61,118 bases of DNA from Candidatus Roseilinea mizusawaensis (GTDB lineage: Bacteria > Chloroflexota > Anaerolineae > J036 > Brachytrichaceae). A program made the translations under genes and the position numbers. Below the pieces are notes generated by a model that searched no databases, was not told where the DNA came from, and saw only the letters and a program-made list of their open reading frames with translations. The stretch is from NCBI GenBank assembly GCA_016841965.1, contig JAEANN010000041.1:1-61118 (forward strand), given 5' to 3'. Shown here piece after piece: positions 398-57,530 of this stretch (positions within the stretch are counted from its first letter, which is position 1; each line of letters opens with the position of its first letter).

Positions 398-2335
398 ATG
401 ACGACTTACCGGCCCGAAAATCCGCTGATCGTGCAGAGCGACAAGAGCGTGCTGCTGGAAGTGGACAACCCGCTGTACGCCGAGGCGCGCGATGCCCTGG
501 CCCGCTTCGCCGAGCTGGAAAAAAGCCCAGAATACGTGCACACCTATCGCATCGGCTCGTTGTCGCTGTGGAACGCCGCAGCAGCCGGCCTAACCGCCGA
601 CGCCATCCTGGCCGACCTAGAGCGATTCTCCAAGTACCCGCTGCCGGACAATGTCCGGGTAGAGATTCGGGATGCGATTGGGCGGTATGGGCGAATCAAG
701 ATCGTCGCCGAAGAAGGATTCTGGGCCGGCGGGCCAAATGGCGCCGGCCGGCTGCTGGTCGTCACCGATGACCTGCGGCTGGCCGAAGAGATCAGCCGGC
801 ACAAGCTGTTTGCGCCGCTCATCCAGGCCCGGCTGAACCCACTCACTTTTCAGATCGACCCAGCACAGCGCGGGCATGTCAAGCGCGTGCTGGTGCAGAT
901 CGGTTTTCCGGCCGAAGACCTGGCCGGCTATGTCGAGGGCGCCGCGCTGAATTTCGAGCTGCGCGAGCTGGGCGCGTTGACCGGCGCGCCGTTTGCGCTG
1001 CGCACCTATCAAGTGGACGCCGCCGAAGTGTACTGGGCCGGGGGCAGCGCCGCCGGCGGCAGCGGCGTAGTGGTGCTCCCCTGCGGGGCCGGCAAGACGC
1101 TGGTCGGCATCGCCGCCATGCACCGCACCCAGTGCGCCACCCTCATTCTGACCCCCAACACCGTGGCCGTGCGGCAGTGGATCCGCGAGTTGTTGGACAA
1201 GACCACCCTCACCGAAGACCAGATCGGAGAGTACACCGGCCTGAAAAAGCAAATCCGCCCCGTCACCGTCACCACTTACCAGGTGCTCACTTACCGCCCC
1301 CGACGCCCAAAGACACACAACGAACGATCCACCCCAAATGACGCATCGTCACTCAGCACTCAGCACTCACCACTCAGCACTCACCACTCACCACTCACCA
1401 CTCAGCACTCACCACTCACCACTCAGCACTCACCACTCAGCACTCACCACTCACCACTCCTCACCGACTATCCCCACATGGCATTGTTCAACTCACTGGA
1501 CTGGGGGCTGATCGTGTATGACGAAGTGCACCTGTTGCCGGCGCCGGTGTTCCGCATCACCGCCGAGATCCAGGCCCGCCGCCGCCTCGGTCTGACGGCC
1601 ACCCTCGTGCGCGAGGACGGGCGTGAAGACGAAGTGTTCTCGCTGGTCGGCCCCAAGAAGTACGATGTGCCGTGGAAGGACCTGGAACGGCAGGGCTGGA
1701 TTGCCACCGCCGAATGCCACGAGATTCGCATCCCGCTGGAAGAGGAAGACAAGCTCGAATACGCCGTGACCAATCTCGACAACAAGTATCGCTTCGCCGC
1801 CACCAATCGGCGCAAACAGCGCGTCCTCTCGATGCTGATGTCCAAACATCGCGAGGACTCGGTGCTCATCATCGGTCAGTTCCTCGACCAGCTCGAAGAG
1901 ATTGCCCGGCGCATCGACGCGCCTCTGATCAGCGGCGAAACGCCTGTGCGTCAACGCGAGAAACTGTACGCGCAGTTCCGCGATGGCGAGATCAACAAGC
2001 TGGTGCTGTCGAAGGTGGGCAACTTCTCTATCGACCTGCCGGATGCCAATGTGCTGATCCAAGTCAGCGGCATGTTCGGCTCGCGGCAGGAAGAGGCGCA
2101 GCGCCTGGGCCGGGTGTTGCGGCCCAAGCAGAATGGCCTGCTAGCGCATTTCTATACGCTCGTGACGCGCGACACACTGGATCAGGAGTTTGCCGCCAAA
2201 CGCCAGTTGTTCCTGACCGAGCAGGGGTACCACTACGATATTTTTTACGAGGACGAGGTCGAAGCGTTCCGGCCGGCTGTCATTGCCGCCAACGCCGCCC
2301 CCGTCCGGCGCAAGTCTGGCGCGTTCAACGGATAA
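398..2335 (+). CDS. XPB/Rad25-like DEAD/DEAH-box DNA helicase
   Basis: This is a 645-residue superfamily 2 helicase of the XPB type, the 3'-5' DNA helicase/translocase known from nucleotide excision repair in eukaryotes and archaea and found scattered in bacteria. It has an N-terminal damage-recognition-like region (about 1-190) and Walker A with K233 (CGAGKT). Motif II is DEVH at D375-H378, followed by LTATLVRED, which contains the RED motif typical of XPB. A C-terminal helicase domain ends with the motif VI sequence QRLGRVLRP. Between motif Ia and motif II sits an odd Ser/Thr/His/Pro-rich insert (about residues 318-353) encoded by 15 heptanucleotide repeats. The stop is followed 3 nt later by the next gene, so the three genes form one operon. 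The ATG lacks a Shine-Dalgarno but sits just after a promoter. Confidence 0.93.
   Translation: MTTYRPENPLIVQSDKSVLLEVDNPLYAEARDALARFAELEKSPEYVHTYRIGSLSLWNAAAAGLTADAILADLERFSKYPLPDNVRVEIRDAIGRYGRIKIVAEEGFWAGGPNGAGRLLVVTDDLRLAEEISRHKLFAPLIQARLNPLTFQIDPAQRGHVKRVLVQIGFPAEDLAGYVEGAALNFELRELGALTGAPFALRTYQVDAAEVYWAGGSAAGGSGVVVLPCGAGKTLVGIAAMHRTQCATLILTPNTVAVRQWIRELLDKTTLTEDQIGEYTGLKKQIRPVTVTTYQVLTYRPRRPKTHNERSTPNDASSLSTQHSPLSTHHSPLTTQHSPLTTQHSPLSTHHSPLLTDYPHMALFNSLDWGLIVYDEVHLLPAPVFRITAEIQARRRLGLTATLVREDGREDEVFSLVGPKKYDVPWKDLERQGWIATAECHEIRIPLEEEDKLEYAVTNLDNKYRFAATNRRKQRVLSMLMSKHREDSVLIIGQFLDQLEEIARRIDAPLISGETPVRQREKLYAQFRDGEINKLVLSKVGNFSIDLPDANVLIQVSGMFGSRQEEAQRLGRVLRPKQNGLLAHFYTLVTRDTLDQEFAAKRQLFLTEQGYHYDIFYEDEVEAFRPAVIAANAAPVRRKSGAFNG
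1350..1454 (+). repeat. 15 x 7-nt tandem array (CACTCAG/CACTCAC) inside the helicase gene
   Basis: Fifteen uninterrupted heptamers of CACTCAG or CACTCAC make 105 nt, which is 35 codons, so the reading frame is kept. The protein repeat is 7 residues long (for example HSPLTTQ). It lies in the loop between helicase motifs Ia and II. The same kind of heptamer array occurs between genes (15070-15118). Confidence 0.95.
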
Positions 2336-4489: not shown

Positions 4490-6477
4490 GCACGACCAAC
4501 CCTACCTCCGAGCACAACACCCTGCAACGCAGGGGATCATCCGAAGAAACGGCGCCCGGCTTGCGCCCCGCTCCAGAACAGCCGGCGCGCGTCACGCTGG
4601 CATCGGCGTCCGACTTCCAGCGCGACTTGAGCCGCTACTGGCGATATGTGCGCAGCAAAGGTGAAATTGGGCTAACAACGCGCGGCTGGATCTACAAGAC
4701 AGCGTTCAAGGGGTTGCTCGCAGCGCTTAACGAAGCGCCCGATGGACCAGACACCGAATCGGAACATCCACGCCTGTTCTTCATGCGACGCTTGCTGGTT
4801 GCGCTGCGCGAGATAGACAACCGGCCCGGCGCGCTTGCAGCTCAGCCCGATGGGCGCTTCTTCCACATGCCATTGCCAGAGCGCATCAAACTGTGTTTCG
4901 AGACATGGCGCGACGCTATGGAAACTGTAGACATGATCGGGGCCGAGCGGACAGGCGCCCCCAGCCCACCCCAACAAGCCGGCGCAGGCTGGGGCAGGCT
5001 GCCCGGCATATTGCCCGGCATCTTGCCCGGCATCTTGCCCGGCATCTTGCCTTCGACAGTCAGGACACGCACAGCGGTGTTGCGCGCTCTGGTGCGCGCC
5101 GAGAAATTAAACACCCTGGAACACCCGCAGGGGACGAGCGGCGCACCTGCTGCGCAATGGCGATCGGTTACATTGCTGCTAGATGCGGTGGCGCGCTCAG
5201 AGCTGGCCGGCCATCTCAGCGCGCCGAAGCAACACACCATCCGCGCGAACCAGATCCCCCAGCCGGATCGCGCTGAGGCATTGTTCATGCTGGCCGGGCC
5301 GTTGCACTGGCTGGGCCTAGTCGATCTGGGCTATGACGATCCGGCTGCCGGCGCCAAGACGCCTGCCAGCCGGCTGCCTGCGTCCTACCGACTAACTGAC
5401 ACCGGACTGTGGCTGCTCGGTCTGGCCCACGAGCCAGATTTTGTCGAAAGCGGTGGGCGGGTGCTGGTGCAACCCAATTTCACCATCCTGGCTATGGAAC
5501 CAATCAGCGATCGCGTGCTGATGGATCTCGACCAGTTTGCAGAGCTTGAGGGGGGCGACCGCGCCACCACCTATCAGTTGACCCGGCAATCGGTCTATCG
5601 CGGACAGCGGGCCGGCTGGGATGTTGCGCGCATCGTGTCTTTCCTGGAAGCGCATCAGGGCGCGCCGCTGCCTCCTAATATCCAGCGCACCCTGAACGAA
5701 TGGCAAGCCCTGCATCACCGCATCGTGTTCCGTCGCAAGGCGCGCGTGGCACAGTTTGCAGATGACGCAGCACGAGACGCCGTCACCAAACTGCTGACCG
5801 ATGCCGGAATAAAACTGGTCACCCTGGGGCCGGCATATACACTGCTGGAATCAGACACGCCGACAACGGCACTCATTGCTACACTGCAGGACGCAGGATG
5901 GATGCCGGACATCAGGCTATCTGGCCGGCATTCGGCCGAACGCGCCAATGCAGACGCTCTTGGCTCTGCCGGCGACGACACCGAGGGATGCCTGCGGCTC
6001 ATCCCATCTCACCAGACCAGATCAGAGGAAGCTGCCGGCAGCTTCGATGTCGTGTTCAAACAGCCGACGCCCAGCCTGTTTGCCCTCGGCCAACTGGCGC
6101 CATTGGCCGGCCCCCTTGTACCGGGACAGCCCTTGCAGATCACGGCTGCCGGTGTGCGCAACGCGCTATCCAACGGCATGACCCTCGATCAGATTCTGGC
6201 CACGCTGGCGCATCTGCACGATGGCCCCTTACCATGGCCGGTGGAGCAAAATATCCGGGAGTGGGCACGTTTCTTTGGCCACGCCAGCGCAAGCATGGTG
6301 TGCTTGTTCGAGTTCAGCAATCAAGAAGTATTGAACAACCTGCTTGATGACGACACGACCGGCCGCTATCTCAGGCCAATCGAGGGCAGCTTGCAGCCGG
6401 CGGCGATTGTAGATGCCGCTCACGCCAGCATGGTGCGCGAGCTGCTGGCCGAGCGGGGCATCAAGATCACGACGTGA
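4486..6477 (+). CDS. helicase-associated (XPB/Ssl2-like) domain protein, second paralogue
   Basis: The 663-residue protein has a clear helicase-associated segment in its centre. It contains a VQPNFTILAM strand, DLDQFAELE, then TTYQLTRQSVYRGQRAGW and FLEAHQGAPLPPNIQRTLNEW, which is the order expected for the Helicase_C_3/XPB-associated domain. A second, weaker copy lies near the C-terminus (from FDVVFKQPTPSLFALGQLAP to the LPWPVEQNIREWARFFG-like segment). An early linker contains four GILP repeats encoded by a 12-nt tandem array. The ATGA overlap with the preceding gene points to translational coupling. No catalytic motif was seen. Together with the preceding two genes it forms a three-gene unit probably acting in DNA repair or transcription-coupled processes (inference). 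Confidence 0.82.
   Translation: MSTTNPTSEHNTLQRRGSSEETAPGLRPAPEQPARVTLASASDFQRDLSRYWRYVRSKGEIGLTTRGWIYKTAFKGLLAALNEAPDGPDTESEHPRLFFMRRLLVALREIDNRPGALAAQPDGRFFHMPLPERIKLCFETWRDAMETVDMIGAERTGAPSPPQQAGAGWGRLPGILPGILPGILPGILPSTVRTRTAVLRALVRAEKLNTLEHPQGTSGAPAAQWRSVTLLLDAVARSELAGHLSAPKQHTIRANQIPQPDRAEALFMLAGPLHWLGLVDLGYDDPAAGAKTPASRLPASYRLTDTGLWLLGLAHEPDFVESGGRVLVQPNFTILAMEPISDRVLMDLDQFAELEGGDRATTYQLTRQSVYRGQRAGWDVARIVSFLEAHQGAPLPPNIQRTLNEWQALHHRIVFRRKARVAQFADDAARDAVTKLLTDAGIKLVTLGPAYTLLESDTPTTALIATLQDAGWMPDIRLSGRHSAERANADALGSAGDDTEGCLRLIPSHQTRSEEAAGSFDVVFKQPTPSLFALGQLAPLAGPLVPGQPLQITAAGVRNALSNGMTLDQILATLAHLHDGPLPWPVEQNIREWARFFGHASASMVCLFEFSNQEVLNNLLDDDTTGRYLRPIEGSLQPAAIVDAAHASMVRELLAERGIKITT
5005..5052 (+). 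repeat. 4 x 12-nt tandem repeat encoding GILP units
   Basis: Four copies of GGCATCTTGCCC (first and last with one change) are in frame and encode four GILP tetrapeptides in the second helicase-associated protein. Copy number is a multiple of codons by construction, so it can change without frameshift. Confidence 0.95.
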
Positions 6478-15069: not shown

Positions 15070-15118
15070 CACTCTGCACTCTGCACTCTGCACCCTGCAC
15101 TCTGCACCCTGCACTCTC
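15070..15118. repeat. 7 x 7-nt tandem array (CACTCTG/CACCCTG)
   Basis: Seven contiguous heptamers lie between the NuoG-like and NuoF-like genes. Unit and period match the array inside the XPB gene, with G and T changes. Confidence 0.95.
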
Positions 15119-37755: not shown

Positions 37756-37889
37756 CTCTTATCTTCCAGAAAGGTTTATTCTGCCGGAATTGGCACCAGA
37801 CACAGTCCAGGCGGTTGAACCCAACCACGCGCGTTGCGCCGGTTGCCGCAGCTTCTTCGGGCCGGTCCCTCTGCTGCTCTGGATAAGAG
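37756..37889 (-). promoter_or_regulatory. SAM-I (S-box) riboswitch
   Basis: The minus-strand leader reads CTCTTATCCAGAG, GCAGAGGGACCGGCCCGAAGAAG, CTGCGGCAACC, then GGTGCCAATTCCGGCAGAA and a closing GATAAGAG. The ends pair (CTCTTATC with GATAAGAG, P1). The sequence holds all core S-box segments: AGAG...GAGGGA, GGCCC-GAAG-CC-GGCAACC and GGTGCCAATTCC. Position upstream of a SAM synthetase gene and a terminator fits transcriptional attenuation by SAM. Confidence 0.95.
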
Positions 37890-39349: not shown

Positions 39350-40280
39350 GCAGCCGGCCATTCAACAGGTTCCATCCTCCCCACAAAGCGCGCAGGATTT
39401 TCGCGGCGGAAACGTCGTGTCGGTGGGGGATATGTTTCGCGTGCGCAAGCTAGCTACGCCGCTCGACCGCGTCACGCGCAGCAGCGCCGGCCGGCGCAGC
39501 ACCAGCCGCACCGAGCGCAAGCGCGGGCGCTACATCACTGCGCGACCCATGCAAGGCCGGCGTGTAGACGACCTGGCGTTTGACGCCACCCTGCGCGCCG
39601 CAGCCATCCACCAGCGCGAGCGGCAATCCCAGAACCCAAAATCCAAAATCCAAAATCCAAAATTCGTTGTTCGGCGCCAGGATTTCTTCCGCAAGGTGCG
39701 CGTGCGACGCATGGCCAACCTGGTGCTGTTCGTAGTCGACGCCTCGTGGAGCATGGCCGTGGCCGAGCGCATGGCCGCCACCAAGGGCGCCATCATGTCG
39801 CTGCTGACCGACGCCTATCAACGGCGCGACCGTGTGGGACTGATCGTGTTCCAGAAGAGCACGGCGACGCTTGTGCTGCCGCCCACATCATCGGTGGAGC
39901 TGGCCCAAAAAGCGCTGATCAACATTCCCGTGGGCGGCAAAACGCCGTTGGCAGCCGGCCTGTCGCTGGCCTATCACGTGGTGATGCGCGAGAAAAGCCT
40001 GCACCCGGAAGTAGTGCCTTTGCTCATCATCCTCACCGACGGCGCCGGCAACGTCAGCCTGGGACATCTCCCGCCACAGATCGAAGCCTACAAAATCGCC
40101 AACCGCATCCGCGACGAGGACATCCGGTCGGTGGTGATCAACATGGAGCACGTGGCGTTTGACCAGGGACTGGCGCGCAAGTTGGCCGAGAACCTGGACG
40201 GCGCGTGCCTGTCGTTGCATGACCTGCACGCCGAGACGCTGTACGCAGCAGTCAAGCAAGAGCTGTCGAGCAGCTCATGA
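39303..40280 (+). CDS. VWA domain of a ChlD/BchD-like chelatase subunit, read by -1 frameshift from the ATPase gene
   Basis: The frame is open from before 39303 to the stop at 40278-40280 (325 codons after the shift). It starts with an acidic, Pro/Gln-rich linker (SEEGLSENADASFSPSQPAI), typical of the hinge of D subunits. A basic region and the VWA domain follow, with the MIDAS motif DASWS, then GLIVFQ, PVGGKTPLAAGL and LIILTDGAGN. Independent initiation is possible at GTG 39417 or ATG 39432, but no Shine-Dalgarno precedes either. Residues 419-429 of the fused protein are encoded by an intergenic-type CCAAAATC repeat that has been translated (NPKSKIQNPKF). Confidence 0.85.
   Translation, partial: SEEGLSENADASFSPSQPAIQQVPSSPQSAQDFRGGNVVSVGDMFRVRKLATPLDRVTRSSAGRRSTSRTERKRGRYITARPMQGRRVDDLAFDATLRAAAIHQRERQSQNPKSKIQNPKFVVRRQDFFRKVRVRRMANLVLFVVDASWSMAVAERMAATKGAIMSLLTDAYQRRDRVGLIVFQKSTATLVLPPTSSVELAQKALINIPVGGKTPLAAGLSLAYHVVMREKSLHPEVVPLLIILTDGAGNVSLGHLPPQIEAYKIANRIRDEDIRSVVINMEHVAFDQGLARKLAENLDGACLSLHDLHAETLYAAVKQELSSSS
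39628..39664 (+). repeat. intergenic-type CCAAAATC repeat inside the VWA reading frame
   Basis: AACCCAAAATCCAAAATCC and following words, 7-8 nt apart, encode NPKSKIQNPKF between the linker and the VWA domain. The same word family fills intergenic gaps at 12483, 13112, 19213, 20352 and 60916. Confidence 0.85.
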
Positions 40281-57477: not shown

Positions 57478-57530
57478 ATTCGTACTGGGTATTGGGTATT
57501 GGGTATTGCGTCTTGGGGATTGGCGATTGG
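57478..57530. repeat. intergenic heptamer repeat (GGGTATT) between rplJ and rplL
   Basis: GGGTATTGGGTATTGGGTATTGCGTCTTGGGGATTGGCGATTGGG consists of 7-nt units of the form TTGGGNA with drift. It is another heptamer family. Confidence 0.7.

Follow-up and report, generated by a model that had tools for sequence, protein, structure and literature searches.

An in-frame heptamer array in the XPB helicase gene of Candidatus Roseilinea mizusawaensis and its probable link to S23-type four-helix-bundle genes

The XPB-type DNA repair helicase gene of Candidatus Roseilinea mizusawaensis carries an in-frame heptamer array that is probably a solo array belonging to a heptamer system linked with S23 genes, having entered a tolerant linker of the enzyme before this species and its nearest sister split. 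The array has the look of an intruder that the gene tolerates, not of a device made for switching it on and off. It lies in a window of 61,118 nucleotides, which is contig C44 of a 3.86 Mb genome (G000) related most closely to Chloroflexota (Thermoflexales, Candidatus Roseilinea). This genome was compared chiefly with its nearest sister species (G001) and a third species (G002); the comparisons cover one genome per species, consist of metagenome assemblies and sample the genome in stretches.

The XPB gene (398..2335, plus strand) is intact and encodes a 645 aa protein with ERCC3_RAD25_C, Helicase_C_3 and ResIII domains, which scored 829.9 bits against the equivalog NF045503 (cut-off 610; E 9e-250) and thus belongs to that family. 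The Walker A motif GAGKT (1085..1099, plus strand), the DEVH box (motif II; 1520..1531, plus strand), REDG and the motif VI residues were all kept in the alignment. TRF reported a period of 7 at 1350-1459 on the plus strand with 15.7 copies and 91% matches, and the unit list resolved this into fifteen CACTCA(C/G) heptamers at 1350-1454, comprising nine CACTCAC and six CACTCAG, followed by a partial CACTC. Shuffled sequence yielded zero period-7 runs of at least 14 nt, which places the XPB array far above chance. The original prediction had described fifteen perfect heptamers at 1350-1454, in frame in the core of an XPB-like helicase and between helicase motifs Ia and II; coordinates, frame, host gene and count were all borne out, while calling the heptamers perfect requires C and G to be treated as equal at position 7, and in the strict sense the array lies instead in the linker that runs from the TYQ motif (1274-1282) to the DEVH box. 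This variable linker (1283..1519, plus strand), recognized from the lengths in relatives and an AlphaFold2 model, spans 78 codons plus the Y codon preceding DEVH. A 12-nt in-frame repeat (GILP x4) was also observed at 5000-5051, within the gene that stands third in the XPB cluster.

Linker length from TYQ to DEVH ranged from 18 to 97 residues across 77 relatives, with a median of 35, in comparison to 78 in G000 and 61 in G001; the 35 added residues that had been predicted therefore describe the array alone and not the whole linker. In an AlphaFold2 model built from 26 sequences, residues 297-360, in the linker, were of low confidence (very low at 299-354) and devoid of secondary structure, although the moderate quality of the model (mean pLDDT 68.4) makes a disordered linker suggestive only. 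Such a loop would probably tolerate the insert with helicase function kept. None of the 77 relatives possessed the G000 insert, and a repeat in the linker was otherwise found only in G001, where an ATCGTCA heptamer array occupies the same site; G002 had none. Homologues free of the insert thus exist, a point the original prediction had proposed to check, and homologues differ instead of all sharing one insert at a constant copy number.

The reading frame is open across the array and the encoded peptide repeats accordingly (e.g. HSPLTTQ), which raises the question of whether this Ser/Thr/His/Pro-rich segment is itself useful as a disordered linker, adjusted to suit XPB activity or the binding of partners. 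Some relatives do have a long linker, and in Borg elements (PMC9879509) in-frame tandem repeats are fast-evolving and create disordered protein segments, much as the array may do here. The Borg ORF examples considered have units of 18, 21 and 36 nt, all multiples of three, whereas the 7-nt unit is in frame at only some copy numbers. The array peptide is wholly unlike between the sisters (HSPLTT-type in G000, IVNRQSS-type in G001) with no conservation, and the same peptide occurs in PurD and wherever the unit occurs, making a positive role for the insert very doubtful.

As 7 is not a multiple of three, only some unit numbers preserve the XPB frame. In agreement with the original prediction, gain or loss of one or two units shifts the frame and ends the protein 17-20 residues past the array, whereas changes of three units leave the frame open. 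Orientation is constrained as well, as the CACTCAC strand lacks stop codons in all frames while the opposite strand has them, so that only the former orientation can occupy a gene interior. A change in unit number that shifts the frame is a property of contingency loci, and heptamer slippage could in principle toggle XPB between full-length and truncated forms under selection for varying DNA repair. The sister's XPB array, with its other length and unit, would fit such slippage. The heptamer repeat of HMW1A acts in a promoter and serves a surface adhesin, neither of which is true of the XPB array. HMW1A of Haemophilus nonetheless offers a precedent, as it phase-varies by slippage of 7-nt tandem repeats (PMC8262952). 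Against this interpretation, the XPB frame is ON in both sisters, arrays are nearly all intergenic, the same kind of array is present in PurD, a gene that does not suggest itself as a target for switching, and nothing singles out XPB. The phase-variable switch put forward by the original prediction is therefore mechanically possible, yet no off-frame copy was seen and PurD has a comparable insert; we regard a contingency locus as quite unlikely, and a dedicated DNA-repair switch as possible but unsupported.

Analysis of period-7 arrays across the sampled stretches of the genome, using thresholds of 15 or 16 of 21 matches set in this analysis and controlled by shuffled sequence and by other periods, showed that the XPB array is one of many. 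In 406 kb chosen independently of arrays, 11 arrays had period 7 in comparison to none with periods 4-6 and two with period 8; this excess of dispersed, mainly intergenic arrays is characteristic of heptanucleotide long simple sequence repeats. Only three of 30 arrays in a 640-kb sample that is 87% coding were inside genes (p 2e-21), namely those in XPB, a VWA-domain gene and PurD. The alternative of a tolerated intergenic-element insertion, also raised by the original prediction, gained support, as CACTCAS arrays (S, C or G) occur at many genome sites, nearly all intergenic, and linker length is naturally variable. Intergenic examples in the window include a CACTCTG array at 15070..15114, located 23 nt from the start of a minus-strand gene and matched at the orthologous G001 site by period-7 arrays of other units, and a GTATTGG array at 57486..57508, for which the corresponding G001 site has GTATTGC units. 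The VWA-domain gene holds an in-frame (CCAAAAT)4 array (39636..39663, plus strand) whose units are nearly identical in the sister, indicating that some arrays retain their unit. In PurD (L144:9683-9793; about 39.7 kb on contig C27 of G000) a 35-aa in-frame array insert, composed of AATCCAG units followed by CACTCAS units, lies in the ATP-grasp A domain and was missing from every relative's PurD compared. PurD was sought in G001 and not found, leaving no counterpart array to set beside that of G000.

Several CACTCAC-strand arrays stop 0-6 nt upstream of start codons (L150:1480, L143:144, L156:10144, L148:9913, L142:9900, L147:10136), the genes that follow such arrays encoding PdxT, a TIM-barrel protein, an SDR, a DUF2085 protein and an RNase Z-like protein, without a Shine-Dalgarno sequence. 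The missing Shine-Dalgarno is unremarkable, because only 29% of genes show one. A bias of arrays towards start codons was considered and rejected, since several abut ATG yet there was no overall positional bias within intergenic regions. Arrays were found in 0/59 divergent in comparison to 17/221 co-directional intergenic regions (p 0.03).

Records of bacterial heptamer repeats go back to the earliest descriptions of cyanobacterial STRR, and we know of no explanation for their origin. Long simple repeats with 7-nt units (STRR) include GGGAATC in Xanthomonas and GGGGAYT in Nostoc (PMC4692102), TAACTGA in Beggiatoaceae (PMC4679880) and GATAGRA in Chloroflexus aurantiacus (PMC6749651), and it is already known that such repeats favour intergenic positions, can form inverted pairs and lie close to start codons (PMC4692102, PMC4679880, PMC6749651). 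The arrays described here share their period, their dispersed and mostly intergenic placement, often beside start codons, the occurrence of some inverted pairs, the need for a stop-free strand inside genes and lengths that differ between relatives. Unlike these repeats, the XPB array is inside a catalytic domain, whereas in-gene heptamers of Beggiatoaceae are nearly all at protein edges (PMC4679880), and a different unit occupies the same sites in the sister species. The examples of XPB and PurD indicate that heptamer repeats can run through enzyme cores.

Comparison of the sister species demonstrated that array positions outlast unit sequence. Three consecutive CACTCAS units gave 67 matches in G000, two in G001 and none in G002, with few other relatives having any, whereas ATCGTCA gave five, 72 and none, respectively. 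Each sister thus has its own dominant heptamer, and in each case this is the main unit of its XPB array. Both flanks of 18 G000 array sites were found in G001, and all 18 sites contained period-7 sequence in that genome, mostly with other units, in comparison to 3/17 in G002. Reciprocally, starting from 20 ATCGTCA arrays of G001, period-7 sequence was present at 11/20 G000 sites and 2/17 G002 sites, and controls with other periods and shuffles were near zero. Among 35 intergenic regions aligned between G000 and G001, a set enriched for G000 array sites in which neighbouring array-free regions provided an internal control, 17 had arrays in both species, 16 in neither and two in one only (Fisher 7e-8). 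A crude strand test did not find the orientation of orthologous arrays significantly conserved (10 same, 7 opposite), and some arrays drift between units with their register unchanged. This pattern is reminiscent of the constant-size variable-sequence repeats of Bacillus (PMC8161180), in which unit size is kept while sequence differs between species, but the present unit is 7 nt as opposed to 20-21 and 52 nt and orthologous sites were compared in G000 and G001.

The shared XPB site also bears on the possibility of a metagenome-assembly artefact. Several arrays are situated at contig ends, so arrays do break assemblies; the XPB array, however, is flanked by unique gene sequence with the frame intact, and an array is likewise found at this position in the independent G001 assembly, which renders an artefact hardly credible. 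Alternatively, the array may be purely the product of local slippage, in which a seed that arose by chance in a relaxed linker expanded where it stood, unrelated to four-helix-bundle (FHB) genes, and period 7 reflects slippage geometry. In many bacteria no long simple repeats are commoner than heptamers, and slippage of the polymerase has been put forward as their cause (Mrazek 2007, as cited in PMC4692102 and PMC4679880); the passage of arrays from unit to unit in one register is in keeping with this. The dominance of one unit per genome (67 to 2 and 5 to 72, as above) would not be expected from local seeds, however, and together with the very strong association of arrays with FHB genes described below it leaves a purely local origin somewhat unlikely.

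In G000, a pair of CACTC-type arrays encloses the best FHB gene of the genome, a member of the S23 / 23S-rRNA-IVP family PF05635 (L358/L142), and the arm unit of this gene is the unit of the XPB array. The best-scoring PF05635 loci of 30 genomes of the class were surveyed, chosen regardless of repeats, and 29 of these had both flanks. After strand correction, period-7 sequence was present at 23 left flanks, 21 right flanks and on both sides of 19 loci; allowing period 7 or 8, these values were 27, 24 and 22, with arms inverted at 21 loci and direct at three. Inverted arms around an S23/PF05635 ORF are thus a feature of FHB loci elsewhere and not of the XPB array. Control genes, consisting of the XPB, PurD and VWA orthologues of relatives, had period-7 flanks in 1/43 and 0/43 cases (Fisher p 1e-13 and 2e-9, calculated from FHB counts taken before strand correction, 25/30 and 18/30). 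Some S23 loci had period 8 in place of 7. Octamer ATTGAGTC arrays were observed in G001 at L061:11868-11921 and L290:425-715, one directly after XPB and one beside an S23-type gene.

The association of S23 genes with heptamer arrays was consistent across several phyla. Among plasmid PF05635 genes, mostly cyanobacterial, 8/16 had period-7 sequence on both sides and 10/16 had inverted flanks, in comparison to 0/77 and 1/77, respectively, for control genes on two of the plasmids. At other loci, no period-7 runs were found in 251 kb from genomes with 0-2 PF05635 genes as opposed to seven in 231 kb from genomes with at least three; by genome this relation was not significant alone (p 0.09), and the rank correlation between FHB count and array density across all genomes including G001 was 0.56, both from small samples. 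Where both flanks could be aligned, the gene at five G001 PF05635 sites was missing or a decayed relic in sisters, and at one G001 FHB site gene and arms were both absent in G000 and G002, where the aligned flanks are 10 and 24 nt apart. Flipping of FHB genes between inverted arms was ruled out, as the loci concerned were merely stored on the opposite strand. On plasmids of Pseudanabaena and Anabaena, S23-type genes with heptamer arms (L394, L396) had cas6 on one side and cas4 on the other.

The structure of S23 proteins is known, and to our knowledge no function has been assigned to them. The FHB loci resemble the rRNA intervening sequences of Coxiella, in which an S23p ORF is bordered by complementary sequence (PMC4990558), in having an S23/four-helix-bundle ORF between complementary sequences, but differ in lying between protein genes and in having heptamer or octamer arrays as arms. 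Flanking of S23/FHB genes also sets the present arrays apart from the 7-nt STRR, as no paper linking S23 with heptamers was found in the literature searched, which was mostly open-access. A consistent S23-heptamer link across several phyla merges two puzzles into one testable question.

These observations favour the interpretation that the paired, mostly inverted arms at S23/PF05635 FHB genes and the solo XPB array belong to the same repeat system, from which the latter appears to descend. A heptamer array would already have been in the XPB linker before G000 and G001 split, after which its unit would have changed in register and its length altered; the single in-register ATCGTCA unit at the 5' edge of the G000 array (1345..1351, plus strand), identical to the heptamer of the orthologous G001 array, may be one old unit left behind. 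Turnover of units was probably driven by slippage together with copying between arrays, and polymerase slippage at 7 nt may be the engine of array change. The XPB array would persist because changes in length are tolerated in the linker, the strand reading CACTCAS is stop-free in every frame and selection keeps only frame-preserving unit numbers. Derivation from an FHB element is indirect, as the XPB array has no FHB gene inside and no inverted partner arm at the locus, and hence differs from the rRNA intervening sequences in both respects. No inverted partner of the kind that bounds a miniature inverted-repeat transposable element (MITE) was seen at XPB either. The CACTCAS-flanked FHB gene of G000 having direct and not inverted arms, and G000 arrays far outnumbering its four FHB genes, also speak against such a derivation. 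More tentatively, S23/PF05635 genes with inverted heptamer arms could be a widespread class of small selfish elements that, when active, produce the heptamer arrays of Chloroflexota and Cyanobacteria and make them uniform; the arrays in XPB and PurD, both housekeeping enzymes, would then be their footprints.

In addition, genome G003 contained close inverted array pairs of the form AGTGCTG..CAGCACT that are capable of long hairpins, with no gene between them (L331, L332, L335, L338, L340). The same dispersed element of about 60 bp adjoined three arrays (L141:1131-1195, L146:9814-9980, L154:1140-1276). Within the window, a SAM riboswitch was found at 37756-37889 on the minus strand.
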